This document shows positions 9,349-62,489 of a stretch of DNA of 64,000 nt, in pieces. The notes beneath the pieces are model-generated. The model searched no databases, was not told the origin of the DNA, and was given only the letters and a program-made list of their open reading frames with translations. Made by a program: the position numbers and the translations under genes. Every line of letters begins with the position of its first letter. The first letter of the stretch is position 1. The stretch comes from a virus, in IMG/VR virus record IMGVR_UViG_3300037468_000183, positions 1-64,000 of that record. The stretch is one strand, 5' to 3'.

Positions 9349-10140
9349 ATGCTACATTCACGTTGGGTCAACGGCAATCTCGCCTTCTGGGATACGCAGC
9401 AGTGTCGCATCATCGACGCCGTGGGGGCGGGAGTGGTCAAGTACCTCAACCACTTCACAGACCTACCGCTCGATAATGCGACCTGGTTCCCGGATGATTG
9501 GAACACCTTCGCCACGAATGCCGGGGCGGATATCGTTGCGCAGCCGATCAGTGTGCCGGGCGGTGTCTTGCAGCTCTCGACGGGCGCGGCAGCTACCGAC
9601 AATGACGAGACCTACATCCAACTCGGCGGTTCGGCTTGTGTCACCAATGCGCCGTTCGTAATCGCGGGCGCGGCGGGCGTTGCGAACGCTTCTCCGCTGT
9701 ACTTCGGGGCGCGCGTCAAGGCGCTGGAAGTGGCGGACGGCGGGTGGTTCGTGGGTCTGGCTGAGGAAGGCGCGGCGGTCACGCTGTTCATGGCGGCCAA
9801 CTCGGCGGTCTTGGCGGCGAAAGACCACATCGGCTTCAACATCCTGACGGCCTCACCAGCCGCCTGGAATATCACGTGGAAACGCGGCGCGGGCGCGGTA
9901 CAAACTGCGGCCGCCGTCGCTGTCAACGCGGGCGATTGGCATACGTTCGAGTTCTGGTATGACGGCGCAACCACCGTCACGTTCTGGATTGACGGTGTGC
10001 TGAGTGCGACCACCGCGTTGACGACAGCCGGGACATTCCCCTACGCTGAGGAAATGGGGCCGATTCTGGGTGTCAAGACCGGCGAGAACGTGCTGAAGCG
10101 GTTGCAAGTCGATTGGCTGCGCGTGGTGCAGTTCAGCTAG
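9349..10140 (+). CDS. Concanavalin/laminin-G-like beta-sandwich protein, second copy
   Basis: 263 residues starting 9 bp after the previous stop, with AGGAGGCGGAT ahead of the ATG. It repeats the whole architecture of the preceding gene, including TNAPFVIAGAAGVA, the FEFWYDGATTVTFWIDG segment and the closing KRLQVDWLRVVQF. With the 7462/8006 pair this makes two consecutive duplicated gene pairs after the capsid gene. Function inferred as virion surface binding. Confidence 0.75.
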   Translation: MLHSRWVNGNLAFWDTQQCRIIDAVGAGVVKYLNHFTDLPLDNATWFPDDWNTFATNAGADIVAQPISVPGGVLQLSTGAAATDNDETYIQLGGSACVTNAPFVIAGAAGVANASPLYFGARVKALEVADGGWFVGLAEEGAAVTLFMAANSAVLAAKDHIGFNILTASPAAWNITWKRGAGAVQTAAAVAVNAGDWHTFEFWYDGATTVTFWIDGVLSATTALTTAGTFPYAEEMGPILGVKTGENVLKRLQVDWLRVVQFS

Positions 10141-27841: not shown

Positions 27842-30378
27842 GCGAGGGCTTGTTAGACCTGCTCGGTCTCGGTCTTGGCCTGGGCGTACCGCAGGAAGTC
27901 GGCTCTATCACCGCGGATGCGATTCTGCAACGGGCGCGCAGCGGATCGATAACCGCCTCTGCCGTTATCGGCAAGGCGCAAACGGGTAGCGTCACGAGCG
28001 CGGCGATTATCCTCAGCGCGACCGCAAGCAACATCACCGCCGATGCTGTTATTGTCAGCGCGGAGCAGGAACGCACCGGCAGCATCACGGCTGATGCAAT
28101 CCTCGTAACGAGCAAGGTTGCCAGCGTCACAGCCAGCGCCGTCCTGCTACGTGGTCGGACTGGCAGCGTAACCGCCTCGGCAATCATCGGTAAGGCTCAA
28201 TCTTCCAGCATCACTGGCGATGCGATCCTGCTCCGAGAGCGTAGCGGATCAATCACCGCCGATGCGGTTCTGGTCAAGGCGCAAACTTCCAGCATCACGG
28301 CCAGCGCGATTATCATTCGCGGTCAGTCTGCCGCATTGACCACCGACGCGGTTATTGTGCGGGCGCAGGCATCCGCACTTACCAGCGATGCGACAATCCA
28401 GAACGCCATTGCAAGCGGCATCACGGCCAGCGCCGTTATTCTGCGCGCACGTGCGAGCACCTTCACAACTGACGCCATTCTCCAGACGCTCCGCAGTGGC
28501 AGTATCACCGGCGACGCGACGATCTTCAAGGCGCAGGCGGGCAGTGTTACGGCGGATGCTTACATTGTCACATCGGGCGCGCAAGCCATTACGGCCTATG
28601 CCGTAATTCAGCAGGCACGCAGCGCCAGCATAACCGCCGCTGCCTACATCGTTTGGACGCAGGCGACCAGTCTGACTGCGGATGCGGTCTTGCTCAAGAC
28701 GCAGGTCGGGGCCATCACCGGCGCGGCAATCATTCGGCAGGCGCGGGCGTCCAGCATCACGGCGGACGCTACGTTACAGTCTGTCCGCACCAGCAGCGTC
28801 ACAGCGAACGCGGTTATCATTGGCGCGCAGGCAACAGTATTTAGCGTCGATGCGATAATCCTGCGACTCCGGTCAAGCAGCATCACCGCCGATGCTGTGG
28901 TTCAGAGTCGCGTTGACCGCGCCATAACCGCGGACGGCGTTATTCAGGCGGCGCGTTCGACCAGCATCACGGCGGACGCCGTTATCGACAGGACAGGCTC
29001 CGGGGCGCTGACCGCGGATGCCGTGATTCGCAGCGCACGGACTGGCGCAGTCACCGCTGACGCCGTACTACATAAGACGCAGGCGACAAGCATCGCCGCC
29101 GATGCCGTAATCTGGAAAGCTCGCTCAAGCACTTTTACAACCGACGCCATCCTGCTCCGGCAGCGCAGCGGACAAGCCAACGCCGACGCCACGATCTTCC
29201 GCACACAGAGCGGTAGCATCACCGCAGACGCGTATATCAGCACGACGGGCGGGCAGGCGGTTACAGCCGATGCGGTGATTCAACGCGAACGCACCGGCGC
29301 GGTGACTGCGGACGCGTTTATCATTACGGCGCAAGCGGGGAGCCTCACGGCAAACGCCGCGGTGCAGGTCGCGCGTGCGGCTTCGGTCACTGCGGATGCT
29401 GTAATCCAGGGCGCACGCACCGACGGCATCGCGGCACAAGCGACGATTCGGACGGCGCGCACTTCCAGCGTTAGCGCGGATGCCGTCATTCGCCAGGCGC
29501 AGAGCGGCTCCTTCACCAGCGACGCGGTTCTGACGGCGACACGCACCGAGCAGATTGCGGCGGAAGCAGTCATCGCTCAGACTCGCACCGGCAGCATCAC
29601 AGTAGATGCTGTCCTCGGCAGGGTGCGCACTGGAAGTGCGACAGCCGAAGCCGTCCTGCTACGGACACAGGCCAGCACTTTTACAGCCGACGCCTATATC
29701 ATCACGACTGGCGGGCAGGCCATCACCGCCGCCGCCGTCATCTTGCGCGCACAAACGGGCAGCATCACGGCGGGCGCGTTCATCGTCACGCCACGCACCG
29801 GCAGCATCACCGCCGACGCGCTAGTGTTGGTCGGACGCTCAGGCAGCGTCACCGCGCAGGCTGTGGTACGGCAGACCAACGCCGGCAGCATCGTGGCGCA
29901 AGCAACGATTCAGACGGCGCGGGCGGGCAGTGTCACGGCGAACGCACTCCTGCAACAAACACGCACCGGCAGCATCGCCGCTGATGCCTTCTTGCAGGTG
30001 CTACACGTCGCCAGCATCGCAGCGCAGGCTGTGGTTAAGGCGACTCAGACGGGTGCAATCTCTGCCGCGGCCAGCATCGCGCAACCGCGGGCGGGCAGTG
30101 TCACGGCTTCCGCCTACATCGTGTATGCCGGCATCCGGGATATCTCAGCCGATGCCGTCATTCTCCGCGCGCGCAGCGGTAGTCTCACGGCGCAAGCTGT
30201 GGTGCGTGGAACACAGGCCGGCAGTCTGACTGCCGATGCACGCATTCTAAGCGGTCTGACGCCAGCGTGCCGCATCTATGACGTGCCCGCCGAAGATCGC
30301 ATATTCGAGGTGGCAGCAGAGGATCGCACGTATGACGTGGCGGCAGAAGACAGAATCTACGAGGTGCAATGTGGGTGA
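27838..30378 (+). CDS. Giant 14-residue repeat protein
   Basis: 846 residues. After a Leu/Gly-rich start of ~20 residues there are about 56 tandem repeats of 14 residues with consensus SITADAVILRAQTG (42 bp per unit), ending near residue 805. The unit has a Thr-Ala-Asp-Ala-hydrophobic core and a basic or polar pair, suggesting a beta-solenoid or rod of two short strands per turn. The last 40 residues hold a different repeat of nine residues (RIYDVPAED type, four copies). Position in the fibre region suggests a long virion rod. No known domain was recognised. Confidence 0.75.
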   Translation: MSEGLLDLLGLGLGLGVPQEVGSITADAILQRARSGSITASAVIGKAQTGSVTSAAIILSATASNITADAVIVSAEQERTGSITADAILVTSKVASVTASAVLLRGRTGSVTASAIIGKAQSSSITGDAILLRERSGSITADAVLVKAQTSSITASAIIIRGQSAALTTDAVIVRAQASALTSDATIQNAIASGITASAVILRARASTFTTDAILQTLRSGSITGDATIFKAQAGSVTADAYIVTSGAQAITAYAVIQQARSASITAAAYIVWTQATSLTADAVLLKTQVGAITGAAIIRQARASSITADATLQSVRTSSVTANAVIIGAQATVFSVDAIILRLRSSSITADAVVQSRVDRAITADGVIQAARSTSITADAVIDRTGSGALTADAVIRSARTGAVTADAVLHKTQATSIAADAVIWKARSSTFTTDAILLRQRSGQANADATIFRTQSGSITADAYISTTGGQAVTADAVIQRERTGAVTADAFIITAQAGSLTANAAVQVARAASVTADAVIQGARTDGIAAQATIRTARTSSVSADAVIRQAQSGSFTSDAVLTATRTEQIAAEAVIAQTRTGSITVDAVLGRVRTGSATAEAVLLRTQASTFTADAYIITTGGQAITAAAVILRAQTGSITAGAFIVTPRTGSITADALVLVGRSGSVTAQAVVRQTNAGSIVAQATIQTARAGSVTANALLQQTRTGSIAADAFLQVLHVASIAAQAVVKATQTGAISAAASIAQPRAGSVTASAYIVYAGIRDISADAVILRARSGSLTAQAVVRGTQAGSLTADARILSGLTPACRIYDVPAEDRIFEVAAEDRTYDVAAEDRIYEVQCG

Positions 30379-30646
30379 CAGTAAAATTTTCAACAAAGAC
30401 CCGGACGCCCTGCTAGACTATCGTGTCGATTGGATCGCCTGGCTGGGCGTCGATACGATCTCGACATCCACCTGGATATTGGAGTCCGGCATCACGAAAT
30501 TTACGGACTCCAAGACAAACACGGCAGCGACAATCTGGCTTTCGGGTGGCACGGCGAACGAATCCTATCGCGTCGTTAATAAGATCGTCACGGCCGGAGG
30601 TCGCACGGATGAACGCACGCTGACGATTGTCTGCGAGTCGAAATAG
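30371..30646 (+). CDS. Small phage-fibre-type Ig-like protein
   Basis: 91 residues from a GTG with GAGG 6 nt upstream, overlapping the end of the repeat gene. The pattern KDPDALLDYRVDWIAWLG then ISTSTWILESGIT and a closing strand TLTIVCES is the one seen in a widespread small phage protein found near tail fibres, probably with an Ig-like fold. Role is likely virion attachment or decoration. Confidence 0.65.
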   Translation: MGDSKIFNKDPDALLDYRVDWIAWLGVDTISTSTWILESGITKFTDSKTNTAATIWLSGGTANESYRVVNKIVTAGGRTDERTLTIVCESK

Positions 30647-30667
30647 TCGCTCATATAAGGAGCCAAC

Positions 30668-31306
30668 ATGATCGGTAAATGGATAGCTGGCACAGGCGGT
30701 CTGAATCTCGAAATCGTGCCTTACGAGACGCGCCCGGATGCCGCGCGTTGGCAGGGCGGGCCGGTGTATCGCGTCAAGGACATATTCTCGACGCGCAATG
30801 GCTCTTTCGAACCAACAAACGAATTTGGCAGCATCGACCAATGGGCGAAGGATGCGTACTGGTCGGGTGCCAAGTTCGACGGGGCAGGCGGCGATCACAA
30901 CTTTTTCATCCTGGCGCTGGACGAAGCGGGCCAGCCGATTCCAGGGAAGGGCCTGCTGTTCTGGCAAGGCGCAATGACCGCTGATTTCACTCCGAGCGAC
31001 CCGCGCACGGCGAAACATGACGGCTCTGAGAATATCCCGGTATTTGGCTCGTATGCGCCGGATCGCGACGAACATGGTTCGTGGAGCGGCGCGGTACTGG
31101 GAAAATCCGATGTGTTGGTGGGCGTCGGGATGCCGTGGAATCATCACGTTTCGACGTTCCTGGTGCTGCAAGCGGTTGCTGATTCCCAGCCTCCACCACG
31201 ACCGCCTGACCCTCTGCCGGATGACGACTTCCAGCAGACCGTATTGGCGCATCTCGACGCCATTTATTTGCGGCTCGATGACATGGCGAAGCACTTGGGT
31301 GCATGA
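30668..31306 (+). CDS. Hypothetical fibre-region protein with coiled-coil end
   Basis: 212 residues. Residues 1-~165 form one compact aromatic-rich domain (YRVKDIFSTRNG, NFFILALDEAGQPIPGKG, FWQGAMTADFTP). A PPPRPPDPLPDDD linker follows, then a 25-residue helix (VLAHLDAIYLRLDDMAKHL). The ATG is preceded by AAGGAGCCAAC. No family recognised. The architecture suggests a binding domain tethered through a coiled coil to another virion part. Confidence 0.6.
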   Translation: MIGKWIAGTGGLNLEIVPYETRPDAARWQGGPVYRVKDIFSTRNGSFEPTNEFGSIDQWAKDAYWSGAKFDGAGGDHNFFILALDEAGQPIPGKGLLFWQGAMTADFTPSDPRTAKHDGSENIPVFGSYAPDRDEHGSWSGAVLGKSDVLVGVGMPWNHHVSTFLVLQAVADSQPPPRPPDPLPDDDFQQTVLAHLDAIYLRLDDMAKHLGA

Positions 31307-31332
31307 AAACATGTGAGGGGCGCGCTAAAATA

Positions 31333-33708
31333 ATGACCAAACTTGCGACGGTCGTCTTAGTGGTCTTTTTGCTGGCTGGCTGTATCGCGCCGCCATCGCC
31401 GCCATACACCAGCGTGGGCAACTATCGCGCCGCGCTGCCACCGCAAATCCCCCGACAAATGCCTGCTATGCCACGTGCGCCGCAGACGGCGGTCTGGACA
31501 TACGCGCTGCCGGCGAAGCCGTGTCCCTGGTCATCGTCTGACAGCAATTGCCACTACGCGTCGCCCGCGCTGGCCGATCTTGGGCACACGGGTACTCTGG
31601 ACATTATCGTCGCGACTAATAACGGCCATGTCGTGGCAGTCGATCATGCCGGTAAGCTGCTCTGGGATGTGGATGTGGCACCCGCTTTCGGTATGCTGCC
31701 CGATACTCAGGAAATTGGCTCATCTCCGGCCGTGGGTGATATCGATGCCGATGGCTGGCTGGAGATCGCGGTAGGCGTTGGTTCGGTGTATCCGACCGTC
31801 TGCACCACGGGCGGCGTGATCGTCCTGGATCACATGGGACGCGTCAAGTCCGGCTGGCCGCAACTGGCTGACGATTGGAGCCTGCCGCTCGGCTGCCGCG
31901 ATACTGTTTTTAGCACGCCCGCGCTCGGTGATCTCGATAAAGACGGCAAGCTGGAAATCGTCGCCGGCGGCTTCGACATGAAAATCTATGCCTGGCGCTA
32001 CGATGGTACGCTCCTGCCGGGTTTCCCGCCCGATGGCGCACATGCCGCGCGCTTCCCAACTGAGCCGGAATTGCAGGGCCGTCTCAGTGATACCATCTGG
32101 TCATCGCCCGCGCTGGGCGATTTAGACCGCGACGGTTTTCTGGAAATCGTCATCGGCAGTGACGAGGGCAATCGACCACCGGGCTATAGCTGCCCCTATC
32201 GCCTGCCTCCCAATTGGCGGCCCGACTACTGCGGCGGCGCGCTCTACGTGCTGGATCGCTTTGGCCGCTTTTTGCCGGGTTTCCCGAAATATGTTCTCGA
32301 TATCATCGCGTCTTCGCCCGCGCTGGTGGATTTGGACGGCGACGACTGGCTGGACATTGTCGTGGGCACGGGGCCTTTTTATTCTGACAACTCCCCCAAC
32401 TATCCCGCCAGCGGCTTCCGCGTGTATGTCTGGGATCATCTCGGCAATGATCTTCCGGGCTGGGAGGGCGGTAAGCTCGTCGGCGGCCCTACGCCAGCGT
32501 CACCAAGCATTGGCGACCTGGACGGCGATGGCGAGCCCGAAATAGTCATCGCAACCTATGATCCAGAGCGTAAGCTGTACGCCTGGCATGTTGACGGTGC
32601 GCTATTGCAGGGCTTCCCGATGGCGCCAACCTTCAATGGCGTAACTTATGCTAGTTTCGACACGCCTGCGAATTTCGTCTTGGCGGATTACAACGGCGAC
32701 GGCAGGCAGGAAATCTTTTTCAGCACCGGCTGGCTGGTGACGGTCGTGGATGGTAACGGCAAGCAGCTTACCAGCACGGGTTATGGCAGTCCCCTACCAT
32801 CCTACATGTCCAACGGCTCGCTGATCAATAATCCCGCCATTGGTGACCTGCGCCATGATGGGCAGTTGGCATTGATCGCCACTAACAGCCAGGTGACCGT
32901 TTGGGATTTACCAGGTGCTGGCCGGGCAGCCGCCTGGCCGCTCTTTCGCAACAACGCACCACGCATGGGGAGTCTTGGCACAATCATACCTCTGCCCATC
33001 GTCGCCCATAGCGCACGTGGTCTCGTGGAACGCTTCTACCTGCATGTTTTACGGCGCGCACCGGACCAAGCGGGCATGGATACCTGGACCAATGCGTTGC
33101 TGGATCGCGCCATGAGCGGCGCTGATTTGGCACGCGCCTTTGTCCTCAGTTCTGAATTTGGCGACAGCAACACCACCAATGCTGATTTCCTAACCATCAT
33201 ATATCGCGCATTCTTCGACCGCGTGCCGGATGCTGGCGGTTACAACGTCTGGCTCAGCGCGCTCAACAACGGACTGCCGCGCGTCGAGATGCTGGACGGC
33301 TTTATCCGTTCGCGCGAATTTGCTGAGCTATGCGACAGCTACGGCATCCGCGCCAACACAACGCACCAGGACAAGCTGCGCAGTTTCGTGACGCGCCTCT
33401 ATCGCGAAGTCTTGGGACGCGCACCGGATGCCGCGGGGTTGGCGCTGTGGGCTATGGGCAACCATACGGGTGGAGAGATGGTGCGCGGTTTCGTGCTCAG
33501 CCAGGAGTTCGGCAAGCGCGCATTCAGCGATGAGCAATTCGTGACCATGCTGTATCGCGCACTCCTCAACCGCGTACCGGATAGCGGAGGCTATGACTAC
33601 TGGCTCGCCAATCTCCGCGGCGGCATGAGTCGCACGCGCGTGCTGGAAAACTTTATCGGTTCGGCGGAATTTACCGAACTATGCAAGAGCTACGGCATCG
33701 CGCCCTAA
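31333..33708 (+). CDS. Lipoprotein with FG-GAP beta-propeller and DUF4214 repeats
   Basis: 791 residues. The start at 31333 gives a textbook lipoprotein signal with lipobox LLAGC (Cys17). Residues ~75-540 carry seven propeller blades with calcium-binding motifs of the DIDADG / DLDKDG / DLDGDG type. Residues ~565-790 carry four DUF4214-like repeats (FYLHVLRRAPDQAGMDTW, with FILS-EF between). DUF4214 occurs in surface and S-layer-associated proteins. An exported lipoprotein in a phage late region is unusual. It may be a lysogenic-conversion or exclusion factor. Confidence 0.75.
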   Translation: MTKLATVVLVVFLLAGCIAPPSPPYTSVGNYRAALPPQIPRQMPAMPRAPQTAVWTYALPAKPCPWSSSDSNCHYASPALADLGHTGTLDIIVATNNGHVVAVDHAGKLLWDVDVAPAFGMLPDTQEIGSSPAVGDIDADGWLEIAVGVGSVYPTVCTTGGVIVLDHMGRVKSGWPQLADDWSLPLGCRDTVFSTPALGDLDKDGKLEIVAGGFDMKIYAWRYDGTLLPGFPPDGAHAARFPTEPELQGRLSDTIWSSPALGDLDRDGFLEIVIGSDEGNRPPGYSCPYRLPPNWRPDYCGGALYVLDRFGRFLPGFPKYVLDIIASSPALVDLDGDDWLDIVVGTGPFYSDNSPNYPASGFRVYVWDHLGNDLPGWEGGKLVGGPTPASPSIGDLDGDGEPEIVIATYDPERKLYAWHVDGALLQGFPMAPTFNGVTYASFDTPANFVLADYNGDGRQEIFFSTGWLVTVVDGNGKQLTSTGYGSPLPSYMSNGSLINNPAIGDLRHDGQLALIATNSQVTVWDLPGAGRAAAWPLFRNNAPRMGSLGTIIPLPIVAHSARGLVERFYLHVLRRAPDQAGMDTWTNALLDRAMSGADLARAFVLSSEFGDSNTTNADFLTIIYRAFFDRVPDAGGYNVWLSALNNGLPRVEMLDGFIRSREFAELCDSYGIRANTTHQDKLRSFVTRLYREVLGRAPDAAGLALWAMGNHTGGEMVRGFVLSQEFGKRAFSDEQFVTMLYRALLNRVPDSGGYDYWLANLRGGMSRTRVLENFIGSAEFTELCKSYGIAP

Positions 33709-34002: not shown

Positions 34003-34039
34003 AAGGACAGCTTTGACTGCCGTAGTCAAAGCTGTCCTT
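34003..34039. terminator. Perfect 16-bp hairpin between converging blocks
   Basis: Arms AAGGACAGCTTTGACT (34003-34018) and its exact complement (34024-34039) around a 5-nt loop. It lies 17 bp after the last rightward gene and 13 bp after the end of the leftward gene 34053-34517. No T-tract follows on either strand, so it may act as a bidirectional terminator with help or as an mRNA 3-prime end barrier. Confidence 0.7.
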
Positions 34040-34052
34040 GCGAGCGACGAGT

Positions 34053-34517
34053 TTACTTGCTTCTGTAGTAGGCTCCGAACCACTCTAGCCAATGTGCAAA
34101 TGCCTGTTGCTGAGCTGTGCTAGGATAGGTACGTTGAGGCAGTTGAAACTTCAGAAACCAGGCAACTGCAAGTGCAATCGTAGCTGTCCATGCGTTGGCG
34201 ATTCCAACGTCTGCCGCCCAATCGCAACAGAAGTCGAAGTCAGTTGCGCAGACGTCGCTGAGGTCGAACGATTTCCGGAGCAATCGCAAGCTGCAGGTTC
34301 CGCCACCAGAGATGCTACCACCTGTGCCAACGGCAATCAGGCACTCCTCTTTTGACTCCCCGTCACCCACCATGACCTTGTATCGCGTTCCGTCACCGGG
34401 TTGTACGACCAACAACTTCGCGTTGCCAGAGAAACAAACTGTTTGCTGTGTCATTAGTTCAGACTCCCGAAGCGGATTGCCAGGCATCAGGATCGAGTAC
34501 GTGACGAAGTAGGCCAT
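34053..34517 (-). CDS. Hypothetical protein with one hydrophobic segment
   Basis: 154 residues, ATG preceded by CCAGGAGGAACA. The first half is beta-rich with several Cys (DVCATDFDFCCDW). A hydrophobic stretch ATIALAVAWFL lies near residue 118, followed by an aromatic helix HWLEWFGAYYRSK. No family recognised. It is the last gene of the leftward block, and a parS site lies just upstream of its ribosome site. Lower GC than neighbours. Confidence 0.6.
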   Translation of the reverse strand: MAYFVTYSILMPGNPLRESELMTQQTVCFSGNAKLLVVQPGDGTRYKVMVGDGESKEECLIAVGTGGSISGGGTCSLRLLRKSFDLSDVCATDFDFCCDWAADVGIANAWTATIALAVAWFLKFQLPQRTYPSTAQQQAFAHWLEWFGAYYRSK

Positions 34518-34534
34518 TGTTCCTCCTGGGAAAA

Positions 34535-34550
34535 TGTTTCACGTGAAACA
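34535..34550. promoter_or_regulatory. Perfect parS centromere site (copy 1)
   Basis: TGTTTCACGTGAAACA, identical to the bacterial chromosomal parS consensus bound by ParB, extended to an 18-bp palindrome by flanking A and T. It lies in the 43-bp gap between two leftward genes. A second identical 18-bp site is 2.1 kb away. Confidence 0.85.
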
Positions 34551-34560
34551 TGCGCGGCGC

Positions 34561-35400
34561 TCAGTCCTCCGTCGCGTCGAGCGGCATCTGCACGGCGCGC
34601 TCCGACTCGTGCGGGAATAGCGGCGCTTGCAGTTGCGCCCGTCCGACACGCTCCCGCGTCAGTGCGATGTACTCAGCGGCAATGTCGATGCCGATAGCCC
34701 GGCGTCCCAACGTAACCGCCATTTTCAGCGTAGTGCCCGATCCGCACATAGGATCAAGCACCACGTCGCCGGGATTGCTCCAGGAGAGGATGTGATCGCG
34801 CGCCAGGGCTTCGGGGAAGATCGCAGGGTGATTTGCTGCGTCAGGATCAGAATAGCCGTTCGTTCCGTGTGATAGGATGTCCCATACGTTATCCTTCACG
34901 CGCATTCCGCCCCCGATTCTGACATTAAGAACTTCTTGGGTGCCTCTTATTTTTGATCCTACGACAAAACCACCATGCCCAGTCGATTTTACTTTTATCA
35001 GATTGGCGGTGGTAGGAGACTCCTTTGACATGATAAACATATACTCAAAAACTGATGCGTAACGGACAGTTTCAGGGAACTGGGGAGCACTCCGGCGATA
35101 GATCATCGTATCGTGAAGGTTGAAGCCCAGGCCCATGAACCCAAGCGCCTGCCGGAAGCTCGTGCCCGTCTCGCTGCCGTTGACCGTCGCATCGGCAACG
35201 ACCCACACGACCACGCCGCCCGGCTTGGTGACGCGCCACAGTTGCGCGGCGATGGCCTCGAAGTCGAAGGTGTAACCGCGGTATTCGCGAAGTCCGTCAT
35301 ACGGAGGAGAAGTCACTGTTAGATCAATCGAGCCGTCTGGAATGTGCGCCGCCATGACAGCAGCGCACTCTCCGGTATACAGCGTCACGTCATTGCTCAT
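34561..35400 (-). CDS. DNA methyltransferase (N4/N6 amino-type)
   Basis: 279 residues from the ATG at 35400, preceded by GGGAAGCAACT; an upstream in-frame extension looks like antisense of the neighbouring gene. Motif IV is TSPPYDGL (residue ~33), and motif I is LDPMCGSGTTLKMA near residue 228, again order IV-I. The central part 34910-35065, corresponding to the target-recognition region, is strikingly AT-rich. A modification enzyme without an adjacent endonuclease, probably protecting phage DNA. Confidence 0.88.
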   Translation of the reverse strand: MSNDVTLYTGECAAVMAAHIPDGSIDLTVTSPPYDGLREYRGYTFDFEAIAAQLWRVTKPGGVVVWVVADATVNGSETGTSFRQALGFMGLGFNLHDTMIYRRSAPQFPETVRYASVFEYMFIMSKESPTTANLIKVKSTGHGGFVVGSKIRGTQEVLNVRIGGGMRVKDNVWDILSHGTNGYSDPDAANHPAIFPEALARDHILSWSNPGDVVLDPMCGSGTTLKMAVTLGRRAIGIDIAAEYIALTRERVGRAQLQAPLFPHESERAVQMPLDATED

Positions 35401-35617
35401 AGTTGCTTCCCACCGGCTCGCAGGTCGCCACGTCCACGAGCAGATCATCGCCGCCATTCTCCGGGCGGATGTACAGCCGGTGTCCGTCCGCGTGGCCGCA
35501 GATGACGACGGCGGGATGACCTTCGTGCAGGATGCGGTCGCCGGGTAGGGGACGTGGCTTGCGCTCATGGCAAATATGGCCTCTTGGGAAGCTCTGACCA
35601 ATAGTCGCAGTCGGCAA
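35390..35617 (-). CDS. Small hypothetical protein, intact copy of a duplicated module
   Basis: 75 residues, probably from a TTG at 35617 (weak AAGG upstream), overlapping the next gene by 11 bp and the previous by 53 bp. The core LPGDRILHEGHPAVVICGHA is repeated almost identically in the start-less fragment at 36208-36375. A His/Cys cluster (CHERKP, HEGH, CGHADGH) may bind metal. No family recognised. Confidence 0.5.
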   Translation of the reverse strand: MPTATIGQSFPRGHICHERKPRPLPGDRILHEGHPAVVICGHADGHRLYIRPENGGDDLLVDVATCEPVGSNYEQ

Positions 35618-36218
35618 GCCTTACGGGGCTGAAATCCTCCGGGTAGATCAGCACCATCTGGCGCGCCGGTGAATACACGCCGGGCCATACGACGCCGTTG
35701 TGGACTACGAGAATCGTGCCCGCCTGCTTGGGAGCTTCAACGGTGAGATTCCATTCGACCTTTACGATATTGCCGCTGTCCTGCTGATCCTCGATGCGTT
35801 CAAAAAGCATGATGTTCCCCCCATCTGCCATGATTCCGTCAATGTCGTCGCGAAACTGATGGATGGTTTCGATGAGTCGCTGCGCTGCTGAGCCAATCCA
35901 GCGATCATGCTCAGCGTCGTATACCGTCAAACCACGCTCGGCCAGGGCATCCAACAAGGTCGCCCGCAAGACTATAAATTCTTCGTCGCTCATTTTTAGC
36001 AGTCCTCCTACCTGTATTACATCATTCGGTCGATCACTTGGATTGCTCGGCCAGCACCAGCGGCGCGCTGCGAGAGCGTCCAACTCATCTCTGAGCCGCT
36101 GCCTTTCTACCTGCAAATTGCGGATGCACATGCTCCACAAGTGTGTCACCGGCACTATCTCGCCGGTATCCGAGTTCGTGGTTTCATCTAACATCTCATT
36201 GCAGTATTCACATCTCAT
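35565..36218 (-). CDS. Hypothetical protein with N-terminal CxxC motif
   Basis: 217 residues from the ATG at 36218. It starts MRCEYCNEML, half of a zinc knuckle with a later Cys (MCIRN). The middle is helical (FIVLRATLLDALAERGL), and the C-terminal third is beta-rich with VYSPARQMVLIYPEDFSPV. The start overlaps the stop of the fragment upstream. No family recognised. Confidence 0.6.
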   Translation of the reverse strand: MRCEYCNEMLDETTNSDTGEIVPVTHLWSMCIRNLQVERQRLRDELDALAARRWCWPSNPSDRPNDVIQVGGLLKMSDEEFIVLRATLLDALAERGLTVYDAEHDRWIGSAAQRLIETIHQFRDDIDGIMADGGNIMLFERIEDQQDSGNIVKVEWNLTVEAPKQAGTILVVHNGVVWPGVYSPARQMVLIYPEDFSPVRLADCDYWSELPKRPYLP

Positions 36219-36375
36219 TGTCGCATTCCTCCAGCAGTTTCAGCAGTTGCCCACGGCGCACCTGTTTGTCGATGCTCAGCCGGAGGCCGTCCGCATGGCC
36301 GCAGATGACGACGGCAGGATGGCCTTCGTGCAGGATGCGGTCGCCGGGCAGGCGGAGACGTGTATGGTTGCGTCG
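36208..36375 (-). pseudogene. Start-less duplicate of the 35390-35617 gene
   Basis: An open frame of 55 codons without any usable start codon after a TGA at 36376-36378. It encodes RLPGDRILHEGHPAVVICGH and a distinct helical tail. A 62-bp stretch (36287-36348) matches 35484-35545 with three differences, so the duplication is recent. Its stop overlaps the next start (ATGAGATGTGA). It could be the -1 frame continuation of the 36276-36560 gene or a decaying copy. Confidence 0.55.
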
Positions 36376-36560
36376 TCATGTCTCAGGTTGATGTGCATTT
36401 TCCAACGCTGATTACCGCTTGGGTATGCGACCTTGACATTGGAGCCGTCAACCTCGATTACGGTTCCGGCCTTGTCTGTCCAATCGTTGACGATGGCCGA
36501 CAGGTCAAACACGTCATCACCGACCTTGAAACCATGATCTATTGGGTAGACAAATAACAT
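36276..36560 (-). CDS. Small beta-barrel-like protein, possibly frameshifted
   Basis: 94 residues nominally, ATG at 36560 with GAGGAGAGCAAC upstream. Residues 1-~65 read as a small SH3-like domain (KVGDDVFDLSAIVNDWTDKAG, GSNVKVAYPSG). The final ~28 residues are in a frame antisense-like to a conserved module, and the -1 frame there holds the conserved residues of the duplicated gene. So the natural product may end near residue 66 or continue into 36208-36375 by frameshift. Confidence 0.5.
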   Translation of the reverse strand: MLFVYPIDHGFKVGDDVFDLSAIVNDWTDKAGTVIEVDGSNVKVAYPSGNQRWKMHINLRHDDATIHVSACPATASCTKAILPSSSAAMRTASG

Positions 36561-37075
36561 GTTGCTCTCCTCGCTTCCTCTATGATGCGCTCGCACTGCG
36601 CGATACGCTCGGTATGATCAAGACTCAGGCATGGCCGATAGTATGCCTTGCGCGCCTTGCGTGGTCGCGGCGCGGGCAATGTTTCACGTGAAACATGCGG
36701 CGCGTCCGTGACACGCTCGCCGGGGGCCAGGATCACGACCGCGGAGATGGGCGCGTTATGGCAGTCGCCGGCGATGTGGATGCCGTGGCAGGAGGGACAA
36801 GGCGTGACATAGGACAATGGCCCAGGATCAGGAAGATCGAACTTGCGCCTTACCATCCTGTGAGTTTCCCAACTCACTTTAGACCATTCTCCGTGCGCCA
36901 GGGCATAGAGAACATTGTGCGATACGCCCTTGTCTTCTGCCAAAGCGCGCCATGATCGCGAATGCTTATAAGCGACCTGGACGGCCATTCGCGTGAGGTC
37001 TAACTCGGACATGACAAAGTCTGTTTCTGGAAAGAAACAAGGACTGGCGGTATCGTGCAGGGCATCCTGTGACAT
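36539..37075 (-). CDS. HTH-like DNA-binding protein with zinc ribbon
   Basis: 178 residues from the ATG at 37075 (GGAAAG upstream); an internal ATG at 37012 lacks a ribosome site. Residues ~30-75 form a helix-turn-helix (SRSWRALAEDKGVSHNVLYALA). Residues ~90-110 contain CPSCHGIHIAGDC, a zinc ribbon. The C-terminus is basic and Arg-rich, ending in a helix. Within the coding sequence, the residues HVSRET are encoded by a perfect parS site. A regulator role is inferred. Confidence 0.65.
   Translation of the reverse strand: MSQDALHDTASPCFFPETDFVMSELDLTRMAVQVAYKHSRSWRALAEDKGVSHNVLYALAHGEWSKVSWETHRMVRRKFDLPDPGPLSYVTPCPSCHGIHIAGDCHNAPISAVVILAPGERVTDAPHVSRETLPAPRPRKARKAYYRPCLSLDHTERIAQCERIIEEARRATCYLSTQ
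36680..36695. promoter_or_regulatory. Perfect parS centromere site (copy 2)
   Basis: A second exact TGTTTCACGTGAAACA, again extended to 18 bp (ATG...CAT) and followed by GCG as at copy 1. Unlike copy 1 it lies inside a gene, encoding HVSRET of the HTH/zinc-ribbon protein. Confidence 0.85.
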
Positions 37076-37079
37076 AGTT

Positions 37080-37817
37080 TTACTTTCCGGCGTTCCTGGA
37101 GTGACCGCCTCCGTATACCCAAACATGCCACTCCTTGAGCGGCACAGGAAGGAGCGCAACTTCCTCAAGCGTCATGATGGGAATAGCATTGGTGGCGTAC
37201 TTCCACTTATCCCATATCTCGATCTCCGCGTTATGCCGTAAGGTTTCGGCGTAGTTTGTCGCCCTGGTCGCAGCGGCCTTGTCGGCGCGTGACTGTGCTT
37301 CCTCTGGGGCGAGAGTCTTCGGTTTGTCAATCAAGTTGCGTCCGTTGCGCAGCAAGTCCTGGCGCGAATTGTAGCCGGCGTCCTCGACTATGTTGTGGCA
37401 CTTGCGGCAAAGCAGAGCGAGATTGTCCTCGTGATCCAAGCCACCATCGGCGCGCTTGATGACGTGATGCGGAGTCAGCATGTATTCGGTTCCGCATATC
37501 TCGCACTTTCCTTCGGCACGTCGGCGCACCTTTGCCTCAACACCACCGGGTAACAGCATTGTGGTTTTCATGTGCCTCTTCTCCTGTTCTGTTTTTGGCG
37601 GCATCATCTGACCGGCTATGAATTGCGTCATCTCGTTGACGGTTGCTGTTCGCTTGCGTTTCTCGTTGCGCAATGCGGCGATACTGCAAAGCAAGTTACC
37701 TGCTAGACTATCGAAGGATGCTAAATCGTGATCGTCAAAATCGTCAGGGGTTGCATGGCGCAACTTGTCAGCAGCGGAACGGAGTGCGGAAAACACGCAT
37801 GATGAGTTATCTTCCAC
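37080..37817 (-). CDS. HNH endonuclease
   Basis: 245 residues. I place the start at GTG 37817, with GAGGGACAAA upstream, just after the leader terminator; an alternative ATG at 37571 (AGGAGAAGAGGCAC) would give a 163-residue form. The HNH core is CEICGTEYMLTPHHVIKR, then GGLDHEDNLALLCRKCHN, with two CxxC zinc pairs. The N-terminal ~80 residues are helical, and the C-terminal ~85 are helical and charged. It may be a homing-type or packaging-associated nuclease. Expression appears controlled by the leader at 37832-37942. Confidence 0.82.
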   Translation of the reverse strand: MEDNSSCVFSALRSAADKLRHATPDDFDDHDLASFDSLAGNLLCSIAALRNEKRKRTATVNEMTQFIAGQMMPPKTEQEKRHMKTTMLLPGGVEAKVRRRAEGKCEICGTEYMLTPHHVIKRADGGLDHEDNLALLCRKCHNIVEDAGYNSRQDLLRNGRNLIDKPKTLAPEEAQSRADKAAATRATNYAETLRHNAEIEIWDKWKYATNAIPIMTLEEVALLPVPLKEWHVWVYGGGHSRNAGK

Positions 37818-37831
37818 TTTGTCCCTCGGAT

Positions 37832-37942
37832 AAACAAACGGGCCGCTCGGAGCGTTTCTTGTCGAGGGAAACGTGAGCGGCCCGCGGGAGTCCATCTCTG
37901 GACTATCCACCTATGTGATGCTCCCTACCGTTTCCCTCGACA
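37832..37942 (-). promoter_or_regulatory. Leader RNA with mutually exclusive stems (attenuator)
   Basis: On the minus strand the transcript should start near 37941. Stem A pairs 37942-37929 with 37873-37860 (TGTCGAGGGAAACG and its exact complement). Inside it lies AGTCCA/TGGACT. Stem B pairs 37884-37875 with 37848-37839 (CGGGCCGCTC and complement) and is followed by TTTGTTTA, i.e. an intrinsic terminator. The 5-prime arm of B lies inside loop A and the 3-prime arm of A inside loop B, so the two interleave. The HNH ribosome site comes right after B. Confidence 0.65.
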
Positions 37943-38780: not shown

Positions 38781-39188
38781 TCATTCCTCGTTGCGCCTGC
38801 CGCGCATCACGTCCGCCGCGGCTTTCTTGACGCCCTCGGCCATCACGTCGAAAGCGTATTCGTCGGCCCACGTCAGCGCCTCGGCACTGTTCGCGAGCGT
38901 GACGGCCACGTCCGGCAATTCGGCCCTGAGACCAGCGTATGACCGGATGCGTCCGTAGCTCTGCCAGCGCGCCAGATCATCGAATTCGGCGCGGGCCGCG
39001 TCGTGCAGATTGGCGATCAGTTCGTCGGTTTGGCCGCTGAAGCCCTCGACATGGCGCGCCGCCTCGCAGGCTTCCTCAAGCAGCTTGCAGACTTGGCGCG
39101 CTGTCAGTTTCTCAGCAGTCAGTCCCTCTGTATAGCCGCGCGCGACCAGCGATTCAAAGATAGCTTCCTGTGCCTCATGCGTTTGCAT
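38781..39188 (-). CDS. MazG-like nucleotide pyrophosphohydrolase domain protein
   Basis: 135 residues, ATG with AGGAGGACAAGCGCG upstream. The pair of acidic motifs EEACE (near residue 38, EExxE) and ELPDVAVTLANSAE (near residue 90, ExxD) in an all-helical protein is the MazG/all-alpha NTP-PPase signature. Such phage enzymes hydrolyse (d)NTPs or alarmone-type nucleotides. The match is by motif only, so confidence is moderate. Confidence 0.6.
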   Translation of the reverse strand: MQTHEAQEAIFESLVARGYTEGLTAEKLTARQVCKLLEEACEAARHVEGFSGQTDELIANLHDAARAEFDDLARWQSYGRIRSYAGLRAELPDVAVTLANSAEALTWADEYAFDVMAEGVKKAAADVMRGRRNEE

Positions 39189-39984
39189 CGCGCTTGTCCT
39201 CCTTGTCCTTGATCCAATACTCCCAAACGTCTCCGCGCTTCCTGCGGGCCAGCTTGCCTTTCTTCTCCATCCTCGTCAGACAGTTGGACGCCAGCGAGCC
39301 GGGAAGATCGAGCACGGCGTTGACTTCGCGGAACGTCATGGGTGTCTTTGCCGCGGTCAGCAACGACAACACCTTTTCAATGTGCTTCTGCTTGCGGCCG
39401 ACCGGGTTGGCCGGCACAGGCGAAGGCACGGCGTTACCCGTTGCCAGCCAGGTAGTGCGCGCCTTGCAGCGTTCGGGGCGGGCGATGCCAATGGCGACGA
39501 TGCGACCCTGATTGCGCAGCAGGCGCCACGCGCCCAGCAGCAACGACTTCTCGCTGTCCACGCCAACGCAACACTCGAAGAACATCGCTGGACGATCCAG
39601 GAGGAGCAGGTTTGCCAACAGCACATCAGCAATCGCTGCAATCTCCACGCGCCTTTGCTCGGCCACGGCTTGCGCGTCTGCCTCGTCAACCGCTGCACGG
39701 CAGACAACCGCCTCCCGCGCGATGTTGGCGCGCTGGCATTCTGCGTAGTACGGACAGGCAGGCCGTTTGGTCTTTGGGTCGTCACACTGGCCCATGCCGA
39801 CGATGCCCGCCTTTGGGTCTGCATGTGACGGCAACGCTTCCCGCCTCACAGCGTCAATCTCGGCCAGGGACAACACCCAGGCATTCGCGAATCCGGGCGC
39901 GCCGCTTGGGATGCGACGCACCGCTGACAGGCCCAAACCGGCGTTGGGCAAAGTGTCAGAGACGAAGGTTCTGCGAGATAGCAT
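39175..39984 (-). CDS. Protein with Cys cluster and C-terminal winged helix
   Basis: 269 residues. The middle part has CPYYAECQRANIAREAVVC (a possible metal site) and a hydrophobic helix VLLANLLLL. Residues ~205-265 form a MarR/winged-helix domain (KHIEKVLSLLTAAKTPMTFR, then a basic wing ARRKRGDVWEYW). It is probably a DNA-binding regulator. A 14-bp imperfect hairpin lies 45 bp upstream of its start. Confidence 0.6.
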   Translation of the reverse strand: MLSRRTFVSDTLPNAGLGLSAVRRIPSGAPGFANAWVLSLAEIDAVRREALPSHADPKAGIVGMGQCDDPKTKRPACPYYAECQRANIAREAVVCRAAVDEADAQAVAEQRRVEIAAIADVLLANLLLLDRPAMFFECCVGVDSEKSLLLGAWRLLRNQGRIVAIGIARPERCKARTTWLATGNAVPSPVPANPVGRKQKHIEKVLSLLTAAKTPMTFREVNAVLDLPGSLASNCLTRMEKKGKLARRKRGDVWEYWIKDKEDKRDANA

Positions 39985-43441: not shown

Positions 43442-43662
43442 TCTGAAGGTTCAGTTGCGGAGATGTCACCAGCAATGAGCGGCAATTGCCGCTCATTGCT
43501 GGTGACAATCAACTCCACCTCGTCCTTGTTGCTTGACAACCACGACAACCTGCCGCGCTGATCAAGCACATTCTGTGTCAGCGTCATCTCAAACGTGATG
43601 GTCGCGTTTCCCGTCACCATGTCGATGCGGGCGGATTTGATGATTGACTTTGGAAATATCAT
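43438..43662 (-). CDS. Small protein containing a palindromic coding segment
   Basis: 74 residues, ATG with AAGGAGCCAAC upstream. Beta-rich (ARIDMVTGNATITFEMTL, EVELIVTS). The residues VTSNERQLPLIAGD are encoded by a perfect 42-bp palindrome at 43465-43506. No family recognised. Confidence 0.6.
   Translation of the reverse strand: MIFPKSIIKSARIDMVTGNATITFEMTLTQNVLDQRGRLSWLSSNKDEVELIVTSNERQLPLIAGDISATEPSE
43465..43506. repeat. Perfect 42-bp palindrome inside a gene
   Basis: GTCACCAGCAATGAGCGGCA plus A, followed by its exact complement with no spacer; the centre is at 43485/43486. As RNA it would form a 19-20 bp hairpin, and as DNA a strong cruciform. Confidence 0.85.
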
Positions 43663-49614: not shown

Positions 49615-50808
49615 TCACTTGCCGACGATCTCTTTGCCGGCAACCTTCGCCTCGGCGCGCTTCTCCAGCGCCACGCAGACGGCTTCCAGGTTCTCGGTCG
49701 TTACCTTCCGGAAGTTCTCGGCGTAGACCGCACGCAGAAGGTGCGGCATGTCGGCCTTGCCGTCCTTGCGATAGTACGGGAAGACCTGGACAAAGACCTC
49801 GCACCACTGCGCGAAGGCGTGGGCGGCCTTGCCTTCCATGTCCGCCATCTGGCCTCCGCCATGCGGCTTCGGGGCGGCGCTGCGCTCCACGGTGGCGCTC
49901 GTCATGGCGTGAAACTCCGCCTCCGCATCAGACAACGGCGGCTCGGTCGCGGGCGGTGGCTTGGACGCCGCGACGGGTGGCGGCTCCTCCTCGGCCAGGT
50001 CTTCGTCGTCGTCATCGTAGTCATCGTCATCGTCCGCGTCGTCAACGTGGCGGGCCGTCAGTTGCAACGGTTGGCCCGCGGCCAATGCCATCTGTTCCTC
50101 GGCCTCGACCTGCATCCGTGCCAACACCCACTCGGCGGCGGGCACGATCTTGACCAGGTCCTTGATGGTGCGATTGCGCCGGCCCGCAGCCTTATCCTCG
50201 TCCTTCCAGGCTGGCGTCGAGATGGATTGCTTGACGCGTAGCACGTTGAACAGGATGCCGTTGAGATGGCCGGCTTTGGTTTCGGCGTCCAGCAGACAGG
50301 CAGTGATGGAGACCAGATCATTAATGCTGTGTGTCTCCATCGTCACGAAGCCGACGAAGCCCGCCCGGATCAACTGCGGCACGATCATGCTCAGGCGCCC
50401 GACTTGCTTACAGCCGGGGTTGTCCTTCGCGCGCGTCTTGGTTCCGGTGTAGTACGGACACGGCCGTTCGCCATCGGCATAGTCGCCGTTGGCCGTGCGC
50501 CAGCGGTTCATTGTCTGACCGTCGCAACGATGCACCATACCGCCGTGGTCATATTCCTCAAACCACGTATTCCAATTCTGTTCCAGCGTCGCGAATGGCA
50601 GATAGGCCTCGATCAGCGCGGGCTTACCGCCGTATGCGGCATCGAAAGCGCGCTGCACATCCTGGCGTTCGCTCGTGAAACGCCAGTGATCCAGGTCGGG
50701 GCCGGGGCGCTTCGGGTCGGTCTTGGGGCCGCCCTTGCGGAGTTTGCCCAAGTCCGGGAACTTGGGCGTGATGTCCTGGCGTCTTGTCATGCCGACTATG
50801 GGTGACAT
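49615..50808 (-). CDS. Recombination directionality factor-like protein
   Basis: 397 residues from the ATG at 50808 (AGAGGAGGAACTTTT upstream). The N-terminal ~200 residues match the phiC31 gp3-type family often annotated as hydrolase or metal-binding protein: LDHWRFTSERQDVQRAFDAA, YGG, HRCDGQTMNRW, CPYYTGT and CKQVGRLSMIVPQLIRAGF. A very acidic linker (VDDADDDDDYDDDDEDLAEEE is longer than shown) separates a helical C-terminal domain. Family members switch serine integrases from integration to excision. No integrase is seen in this window. Confidence 0.7.
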   Translation of the reverse strand: MSPIVGMTRRQDITPKFPDLGKLRKGGPKTDPKRPGPDLDHWRFTSERQDVQRAFDAAYGGKPALIEAYLPFATLEQNWNTWFEEYDHGGMVHRCDGQTMNRWRTANGDYADGERPCPYYTGTKTRAKDNPGCKQVGRLSMIVPQLIRAGFVGFVTMETHSINDLVSITACLLDAETKAGHLNGILFNVLRVKQSISTPAWKDEDKAAGRRNRTIKDLVKIVPAAEWVLARMQVEAEEQMALAAGQPLQLTARHVDDADDDDDYDDDDEDLAEEEPPPVAASKPPPATEPPLSDAEAEFHAMTSATVERSAAPKPHGGGQMADMEGKAAHAFAQWCEVFVQVFPYYRKDGKADMPHLLRAVYAENFRKVTTENLEAVCVALEKRAEAKVAGKEIVGK

Positions 50809-51476
50809 AAAAGTTCCTCCTCTGTATGCTCCTGTAACTTCTTGGCCTGCCACCTCGCGTTTGCCGCCGCGCTTTGCTTGGCCTTTCCATCCGGTGTAGC
50901 CAAGCGGACTTTGTGCGAGGCAGACATCTTGGCACGCGTCTCGGTGCTGTGTACGCGCCCCTTGATTGCAGCGCTGTGTTGGGCACGTGCCTCTGGATTG
51001 CTCATCTGAATTATTGCCGCGGCGCTTATCTTCTCGCGTGTCTCCGGGCTGACTACCTTGCCCCTCTGCGCCGCGCCTATCTTAGCGCGTGTTTCGGCAG
51101 TCTGCGTCCGCCCTCTCAGCATGGCGCGTATTTCGTCGCTATAGTGAACTCCCCTGCACGTCCTGGGGTGTGGAGCTATGTTATAACCATGCTCTCTGTC
51201 GTATGATCGTAACGTGTCCATCCAGTGTTGTTCGCGCTCGTCCAGCCGCGCCAAATCCTCGATGTGTTCCAGGACAATGATCTCGAAAGCCTCCCATCCG
51301 TACTTCGCAACGGCGCGATACAAAGGGTGCGGCTTCTTCCCGACCAAGCACCGATGTTGGTATATGCGCTCTCTGAGGCACTGCGCCTGACCCACGTACA
51401 CCTTGCCGCTTTCCACATGGAAGATGCCGTAGATGCCAGTAAACTTCCAGTCGCCCCAATACGCTTTCGGCATCAT
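50796..51476 (-). CDS. GIY-YIG endonuclease with NUMOD-type repeats
   Basis: 226 residues. The catalytic domain is GIYGIFHVESGKVYVGQA with the Arg in CLRERIYQH and the Glu in EREQHWMDTL. After residue ~110 come four short DNA-binding repeats (SDEIRAMLRG, TAETRAKIGAAQRG, SPETREKISAA, STETRAKMSASH), the NUMOD pattern of homing endonucleases. A selfish free-standing homing endonuclease is likely. It overlaps the next gene start by 13 bp. Confidence 0.85.
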   Translation of the reverse strand: MMPKAYWGDWKFTGIYGIFHVESGKVYVGQAQCLRERIYQHRCLVGKKPHPLYRAVAKYGWEAFEIIVLEHIEDLARLDEREQHWMDTLRSYDREHGYNIAPHPRTCRGVHYSDEIRAMLRGRTQTAETRAKIGAAQRGKVVSPETREKISAAAIIQMSNPEARAQHSAAIKGRVHSTETRAKMSASHKVRLATPDGKAKQSAAANARWQAKKLQEHTEEELLCHP

Positions 51477-61133: not shown

Positions 61134-62489
61134 ATGAATCTAAGCGAGTTTCGTCCCGCACGAGTCAACGCAAATCGCCACACGGCGCGCGGCATCGGCG
61201 CGCTCGAAAAGAGCATCCAGTCAGACGGCTGGATCGGCGCGATGACCACCGCCGCCGATGGCGAGATGATCGCCGGCAGCGCCCGCATCGAGACGGCGGC
61301 GGGCGTGTTCGGCGTGGACGCGGAGCCGGTTGTCATCCACAGCGACGGCAAGCGGCCTATTGTTGTCATTCGCGATGACATCCCGAACGCGTCAACGAAG
61401 GTCGCGCAACGGCTGGCGCTGGCGGACAATCGCATTCACCAGCTTGACCTGGACTTCGACGTGCAGGTGCTCACCAGCTTCGATGCCGACGTGCTGGAAG
61501 GCTTGTGGACGGGCGACGAAATCAGCGACATGGGCCAGCAGTGGGCGGATGAGCAGAGCCGCAACGCCGAAGACCCCGGCGCGCAAGTGGACAAGGCGGA
61601 GGAACTGCAAGCCAAGTGGCACGTGCAACCCGGCGACCTGTGGGCGATGGGTGACCACCGTCTGCTGTGCGGAGATTGTCGGGAGCCTGCATCCTGGGTG
61701 CGCTTGCTTGCGGGCGTCAAGGCCAATGGCGTTTTCACATCCCCGCCTTATGCCGAGCAGCGCAAGGAGCAATACGGCGGGACACCAGCCGCCGAATACG
61801 TGGCATGGTGGGAAGCGGTGCAGGCCAACGTCAAGGCGCATCTCGCGCCCGATGGTTCGTTCTTCGTGAACATCAAGCCGCACTGCGCAGACGGCGAGCG
61901 TGTGCTGTACGTGTTTGATCTGGTGCTGGCGATGAAGCGGGAGTGGGGCTGGCGTTTCGTGGATGAGTTGTGTTGGACAAACCGGGGATTCCCTGGCGAG
62001 CCGCAAGACAGATTCCAGAACGCTTTTGAGCCGGTATATCACTTTTCGGATGGAAAAATCAAGTTTCGCCCAAAGGCCGTTTGGCATTCAAGCGATTCGG
62101 TTCCCGTACACAAGGCGGGGCAGAACTTCAGGCAATCCAATCGAGGAAACGGCTTTGAGAGTCCAGACGTAGAAAGCGGGATGGCCTACCCTCGCAATGT
62201 CCTGGATATCCCAAATGGCAATGGCGGAGATTCGCGACACGCTGCCGCCTTTCCAGTCGCGTTGCCTGACTTCTTCGTGCGCGCCTACTCGGACGCCGGC
62301 GACGTGTGGCTTGATCCGTTCTGCGGCAGTGGCACGACGATTGTCGCCGCGCACAACAACAAGCGGCGGGGATTCGGAATCGAGATGCTGCCGAAGTATT
62401 GCGCCGTGATCCTGGAACGCATCAGCGGCCTGGGGATTACGCCTGCACTGTTGAGCAATGGGGGAACTGTGGCCGATGGCGGGCGCTGA
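61134..62489 (+). CDS. ParB-like domain fused to DNA methyltransferase
   Basis: 451 residues. Residues 1-~120 are the ParB/sulfiredoxin-like nuclease-type domain (SEFRPARVNANRHTARGIGA, then GEMIAGSARIETAAGVFGV and QRLALADNRIHQ). Residues ~170-440 are an amino-methyltransferase with motif IV TSPPYAEQ near 204 and motif I LDPFCGSGTTIVAA near 393. A common phage fusion, probably modifying DNA at adenine or cytosine amino groups. The part at 61960-62150 is more AT-rich than its flanks. The iterons lie just upstream. Confidence 0.85.
   Translation: MNLSEFRPARVNANRHTARGIGALEKSIQSDGWIGAMTTAADGEMIAGSARIETAAGVFGVDAEPVVIHSDGKRPIVVIRDDIPNASTKVAQRLALADNRIHQLDLDFDVQVLTSFDADVLEGLWTGDEISDMGQQWADEQSRNAEDPGAQVDKAEELQAKWHVQPGDLWAMGDHRLLCGDCREPASWVRLLAGVKANGVFTSPPYAEQRKEQYGGTPAAEYVAWWEAVQANVKAHLAPDGSFFVNIKPHCADGERVLYVFDLVLAMKREWGWRFVDELCWTNRGFPGEPQDRFQNAFEPVYHFSDGKIKFRPKAVWHSSDSVPVHKAGQNFRQSNRGNGFESPDVESGMAYPRNVLDIPNGNGGDSRHAAAFPVALPDFFVRAYSDAGDVWLDPFCGSGTTIVAAHNNKRRGFGIEMLPKYCAVILERISGLGITPALLSNGGTVADGGR

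Follow-up and report, generated by a model that had tools for sequence, protein, structure and literature searches.

Chromosomal-type parS sites in a phage genome, and in many others, as candidate handles for host ParB

CTX phage uses host XerCD at dif, and in doing so offers a precedent for what we describe here, a virus that carries a chromosome-maintenance site of its host and would depend on a host protein to use it. The likeness ends with the machinery, since XerCD/dif is a matter of recombination and integration, not of a ParB clamp. The site in our case is parS, the chromosomal consensus of which in B. subtilis and C. glutamicum is TGTTNCACGTGAAACA (PMC7022226). As on those chromosomes (PMC7022226), we see the same 16-bp palindrome in several copies, within genes as well as between them; here, however, it sits on viral DNA and has no parA or parB beside it. 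Centromere-like sites on phage DNA are themselves familiar from P1 and from phages that carry parABS, namely mycobacteriophages (PMC7157519) and Gordonia phages of subcluster A15 (PMC5559632). Those phages encode partition proteins of their own, whereas the phage in our window lacks canonical ParA and ParB and its site is the host chromosomal sequence. The last point of comparison is a class of proteins that join a ParB-like fold to a DNA methyltransferase, which are enriched in phages and for which anti-defence or interaction roles have been proposed (PMC12704722). Such fusions occur in our record too, one of them close to a pair of sites, but they are not canonical ParB and any link to parS is putative.

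The site itself is a textbook chromosomal parS. In the open-licence literature searched we found no earlier report of an orphan chromosomal-type parS in phages, whether lytic or otherwise, and it appears to be undescribed there.

Four sites in two related phages

The window, by which we mean the whole stretch of DNA analysed, is 64,000 nucleotides long and makes up the first 64 kb of a viral record of 104,080 bases (IMGVR_UViG_3300037468_000183), of which the record-wide analysis covered 104,000. A pattern scan of the window places exact copies of TGTTTCACGTGAAACA at 34535-34550 and 36680-36695, each surrounded by the 18-bp palindrome ATGTTTCACGTGAAACAT, just as a preliminary description made from the letters had it. 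Allowing up to three mismatches, the window holds no parS site beyond this exact pair. Exact copies three and four lie further along the record, at 98089 and 99388. Four exact 16-mers in 104 kb stand against an expected count of about 1e-5 (1.1e-5 to 1.7e-5 for the record under Markov models of order 1 to 4), so that even a single copy would not be put down to chance, a point on which the preliminary description was also right. The match to the 16-bp consensus is exact and above chance, the consensus being that of B. subtilis and C. glutamicum, which may not be the host's.

Site 1 (palindrome at 34534-34551, no strand) is intergenic. It lies between two leftward ORFs, 34053-34517 and 34561-35400, both on the minus strand, with the AGGAGG ribosome-binding site of 34053-34517 coming just after it. 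Site 2 (palindrome at 36679-36696, likewise no strand) is translated in frame as HVSRET, within ...DAPHVSRETLPAP..., on the minus strand of the leftward ORF 36539-37168. One site between genes and one read as HVSRET is what had been claimed, and so it proved. The protein that holds HVSRET matches nothing in Pfam or NCBIfam over 36542-37036, and a search for viral contigs encoding its relatives found none. Between the two sites sits a DNA methyltransferase gene (N6_N4_Mtase, 34561-35400, minus strand; Pfam PF01555, E=9.8e-36).

Comparing the record with itself reveals two related phages end to end, phage A at about 1-61 kb and phage B over the remainder, up to where the record is truncated. Both come with a terminase, a portal and tail genes of their own. 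Such a record could stem from tandem prophages, from an episome or from a join made in assembly. The same comparison pairs site 1 with site 3 and site 2 with site 4. At sites 1 and 3 the two phages are homologous from the very first base of parS onward, and leftward of it they are unrelated. Sites 2 and 4 lie within a 159-bp block of 93% identity in a mosaic ORF, the middle of which (TPCPSCHGIHIAGDCHNAPI...VILAPGERVTDAPHVSRETLPAP, with a shared centre TPCPSCHGIHIAGDCHNAPI...DAPHVSRETLPAP) is common to both phages while both its ends are unrelated. The spacing differs as well, 2145 bp in phage A with the methyltransferase in between and 1299 bp in phage B with other DNA in its place; nothing that matches the methyltransferase over its full length lies between sites 3 and 4. 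Phage B lacks, at the corresponding place, the small ORF (34053-34517, minus strand) that lies downstream of site 1. The DNA to the left of 1 and 3, the stretch from one site to the next and the ORF of sites 2 and 4 at either end have thus been replaced, yet the parS sites have persisted. As a signal of selection this comparison of sequences is suggestive and not conclusive, because the blocks that hold parS are themselves 86-93% identical.

Other stretches shared by the two phages are 30289-33708 with 94612-98038 (86.5% identity) and 38783-39693 with 103087-104000 (86%). The first, a 3.4-kb block, takes in the last large rightward gene of phage A (31303-33708, plus strand), the product of which starts with a lipobox-like motif (LLAGC) and carries FG-GAP repeats along with four DUF4214 domains, and the counterpart of which stops just before site 3. 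An imperfect, terminator-like inverted repeat (34003-34039, no strand, seen as a self-inverted match) lies 3' of this gene in phage A.

Partition genes and the likely reader

No gene for a partition system of the usual kind came to light. The ParA ATPase model (PF13614) had no match at E<=1 across the 104-kb record, while 14 of 14 positive controls were detected; the only match to ParB_N (PF02195) in the record falls below the cut-off; and no NCBIfam ParB model matched among the proteins scanned. These negatives are for a record that may be incomplete at its ends. With no ParA and no canonical ParB in it, we rejected a phage-encoded ParABS.

What the record does encode is two fusions of a ParB-like fold with a methyltransferase. 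One (61134-62489, plus strand; Pfam PF01555, E=2.6e-36; PHROGs ParB-like partition protein, E=3.7e-9, together with DNA methyltransferase) is the first gene of phage B, and the other (100304-101602) lies near the sites of phage B. By eye, the latter also has a helix-turn-helix-like stretch. Neither is a canonical ParB. The preliminary description had seen neither ParA nor a CTPase-type ParB gene, which holds for ParA and for canonical ParB but passes over these two fusions.

As the phage encodes no canonical ParAB, host ParB would be the natural reader of the sites, and the earlier suggestion that the host protein binds these sites gains support from the gene content. Tyrosine (PF00589) and serine (PF00239) integrases likewise had no match at E<=1 in the record, the ends of which are open. 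The record does encode a Gp3-like recombination directionality factor, and it has genes for a replication initiation protein, a DnaB-like helicase and a primase.

parS in other phages, plasmids and E. coli

Named phages gave no megablast match to 27-52 kb of the window. A portal search returned 20 viral loci of 32-67% identity, in pieces of 4-93 kb and with parS in none of them, and one locus in a Caproicibacter genome (39% identity). Relatives of the terminase came from many hosts and all fell below 60% identity. Among the public portal relatives, in their 4-93 kb pieces, no close relative spans the parS region.

The site is another matter. In IMG/VR at least 120 stretches hold an exact parS, whereas the reversed-palindrome control turned up in 1. 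Fifty parS-bearing records were checked whole, of which 46 had no ParB_N (PF02195) match at E<=0.001 and none held the control palindrome, even with one mismatch. One IMG/VR record of 116,662 bases (IMGVR_UViG_3300037518_000322) holds 24 parS-like sites at one mismatch or fewer and has no ParB_N match; it may represent either a remarkable phage or DNA from a host origin. Among annotated phages an 18-letter parS query matched 315 of 50,697 records, a redundant count that comes down to some 25-30 lineages among the matches listed; the same query with the other flanks matched 306 records, and the control none. Lytic tailed phages with dsDNA, inoviruses and microviruses are all represented among the carriers, which number among them phages of Listeria (Pecentumvirus), Gordonia (clusters CS and CX), Microbacterium, Arthrobacter, Lactobacillus (Harbinvirus), Bacillus (B103-like), Ruegeria, Butyrivibrio and Vibrio. 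Listeria phage P100, which is virulent, carries an exact parS. The lytic Gordonia cluster CS phages, reported to be without integrase, parABS or repressor, have two sites.

We sampled 14 named phages, in which the number of sites ranges from 1 to 6 per genome and the control palindrome is absent; 13 of the 14 have no ParB_N match. Arrangements vary. Phage vB_BcoS-136 packs four sites within 1 kb, Voltaire has two that are 19 bp apart, and JasmineDragon has six dispersed sites, one exact and the rest differing only in their outer bases. The inovirus PQ006097.1 (6,183 bases) carries six exact copies and has no ParB_N match. Many of the phage sites are intergenic, although genomes of this kind are mostly coding.

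Korravirus, tied to the window phage by the parS site only and not by kinship, provides what we consider the strongest evidence that a palindrome-reading dimer may be selecting for the site. Nine relatives were compared, and all nine have 2-3 parS sites per genome. The Korravirus site examined lies in a gap, mostly 65-66 bp long, between the genes for DNA polymerase I and a PurA-like synthetase, and 10 of 10 diverged phages share its 14-bp core GTTTCACGTGAAAC without change, although over this region the relatives have an identity of 75-97% to the reference. The outermost parS pair does change, from T..A to C..G, and does so symmetrically, which is what selection on a palindrome predicts. Random loss of the sites among relatives had been named beforehand as an observation that would refute the reading. 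Korravirus shows no such pattern, which bears on the window phage only indirectly.

Plasmids offer a contrast. Exact host-type parS was found in 18 of 72,556 plasmid records, some of them chromosome-sized. Two are 18-kb Enterococcus faecium 'plasmids' (NZ_CP019991.1 and CP063571.1), similar in size to the parS-bearing Enterococcus phage CUB-FM (18,153 bases), and these may be phage genomes. The E-value limit passes matches of at least 16 letters in phages, at least 17 in plasmids and probably only the full 18 in E. coli, and about two thirds of the sampled phage rows had at least 17 letters matched; allowing for match length, we estimate parS to be about 35-fold commoner per base in phages than in plasmids. 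E. coli served as the negative control, since Enterobacteriaceae have no chromosomal par (PMC7022226), and in 28 Gb of its genomes no 18-mer was found. Another chromosomal variant, TGTTCCACGTGGAACA, occurs in 108 phage records, with those of Mycobacterium and Pseudomonas leading and its own control at zero; Pseudomonas ParB prefers half-sites GTTCCAC or GTTTCAC (PMC10419367). From these sequences, the parS variant in phages appears to differ with the host. A counter-example is TGTTCCACGTGGAACA in 10 Klebsiella phage records, from a host family that lacks chromosomal par; the three we saw are intragenic.

What the sites may be for

When the same tag recurs in many phages that have no recognisable gene for its reader, recruitment of a host chromosome-handling protein suggests itself. 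Our explanation as a whole, for which we would offer a probability of about 0.5, is that the sites are functional chromosomal-type parS, two per phage, that recruit host ParB for positioning, tethering or organising the phage DNA. Making no canonical ParB, the phage would draw in host ParB through parS. The protein would load there as a CTP-dependent clamp, slide from parS along the adjoining stretch of the phage genome and recruit ParA and/or SMC, and the most likely outcome would be phage DNA that is positioned, tethered or organised in the cell during replication. We hold the parts of this proposal with different degrees of conviction. Judged from sequence, host ParB very probably binds the parS sites of the window phage. 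That positioning or organisation is the purpose of such binding we put forward tentatively, at a shade under even odds. Given binding, we lean, with due reserve, towards positioning and organisation over decoy or partition. Some role in infection, be it positioning and organising through ParA or SMC or the capture of ParB, is favoured because plasmids rarely carry parS and phages reported to be without integrase, parABS and repressor do.

The preliminary description raised three possible uses: a position near the origin, a ParB roadblock or silencer on the leftward operon, both of which are conjectural, and plasmid-like lysogeny, in which a prophage maintained as a plasmid would be inherited stably through host ParABS and its own parS. 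For the window phage this is possible because no integrase was found. The missing tyrosine and serine integrases fit it, as do the genes for replication initiation protein, DnaB-like helicase and primase, and a single parS together with chromosomal par can stabilise unstable plasmids (PMC7022226). Yet plasmids ought to be the main beneficiaries, and they carry exact parS in 18 of 72,556 records against 315 of 50,697 for phages; the Gordonia CS phages, which have no integrase, parABS or repressor, carry it as well; and the Gp3-like recombination directionality factor hints at integration. As a general purpose plasmid-like lysogeny lacks support, parS being rare on plasmids and present in lytic phages, and we think borrowed partition unlikely.

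We are equally doubtful of a decoy, in which phage copies of parS would titrate host ParB and so disturb segregation, SMC loading or cell-cycle control. Such a device asks for no phage-encoded partner and would suit lytic and small ssDNA phages, the 6.2-kb inovirus with its six exact sites among them. The arithmetic is less kind, because 1-6 sites per genome against the roughly 10 parS of B. subtilis (PMC7022226) would call for many genome copies, and a pure sponge has no need of conserved placement in short intergenic gaps of the kind seen in Korravirus.

A good deal less probable is that the palindrome is an operator for a regulator of the phage's own, such as the ParB-fold/methyltransferase fusions, or that ParB acts there only as a local transcription roadblock. 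A ribosome-binding site of the leftward genes does follow closely on site 1, and the record has its fusions, that at 100304-101602 with the helix-turn-helix-like stretch. The 16-mer, however, recurs amid unrelated gene sets and across several host phyla, mostly where there is no ParB-domain protein, host ParB being all that is common to them, and fusions of this type are widespread in phages with no known link to parS (PMC12704722). Chance, or captured host DNA that has no function, we give next to no credence: chromosomes do bear the same site near oriC and some public 'phage' contigs do resemble host DNA (an Acinetobacter match falls inside a betaine transporter gene), but an expected count of about 1e-5, reversed-palindrome controls near zero in every collection, phage genes all around the sites and their conservation in Korravirus led us to reject both chance and host contamination.

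Recruitment of host ParB for positioning or organisation may extend well beyond this record. On the sequences surveyed, orphan host parS is probably, by a modest margin over even, a widespread and convergently evolved strategy in dsDNA and ssDNA phages, with the sliding clamp of host ParB giving phages a handle matched to their host, which could serve to position the DNA, to load SMC or to take over segregation. If so, ParB, a protein central to chromosome segregation, would be a common host factor in infection. It would also explain a conserved noncoding element of well-studied phages, and it would predict new phage-host interactions in the form of DNA localisation, SMC loading and effects on origin segregation. 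The near-absence of parS from plasmids, when set against phages, is a question in itself.

The record has other curiosities. In each phage the final large late gene (31303-33708 and record 95642-98038) encodes the FG-GAP/DUF4214 protein, an unusual cargo that perhaps came from a host; a search for viral contigs encoding its relatives found none. A perfect 44-bp palindrome at 43464-43507 falls between leftward genes and is a candidate terminator or replication element, and a perfect 24-bp palindrome, GAGGGGCGGACATGTCCGCCCCTC, lies at record 72892-72915. The gene at 37083-37910 encodes an HNH endonuclease that resembles the IscB model weakly (40.8 bits against a cut-off of 175), that at 50796-51473 a GIY-YIG endonuclease with NUMOD3 motifs, likely a homing endonuclease, and 8557-9339 and 9349-10140 are adjacent duplicated genes of about 72-78% DNA identity.
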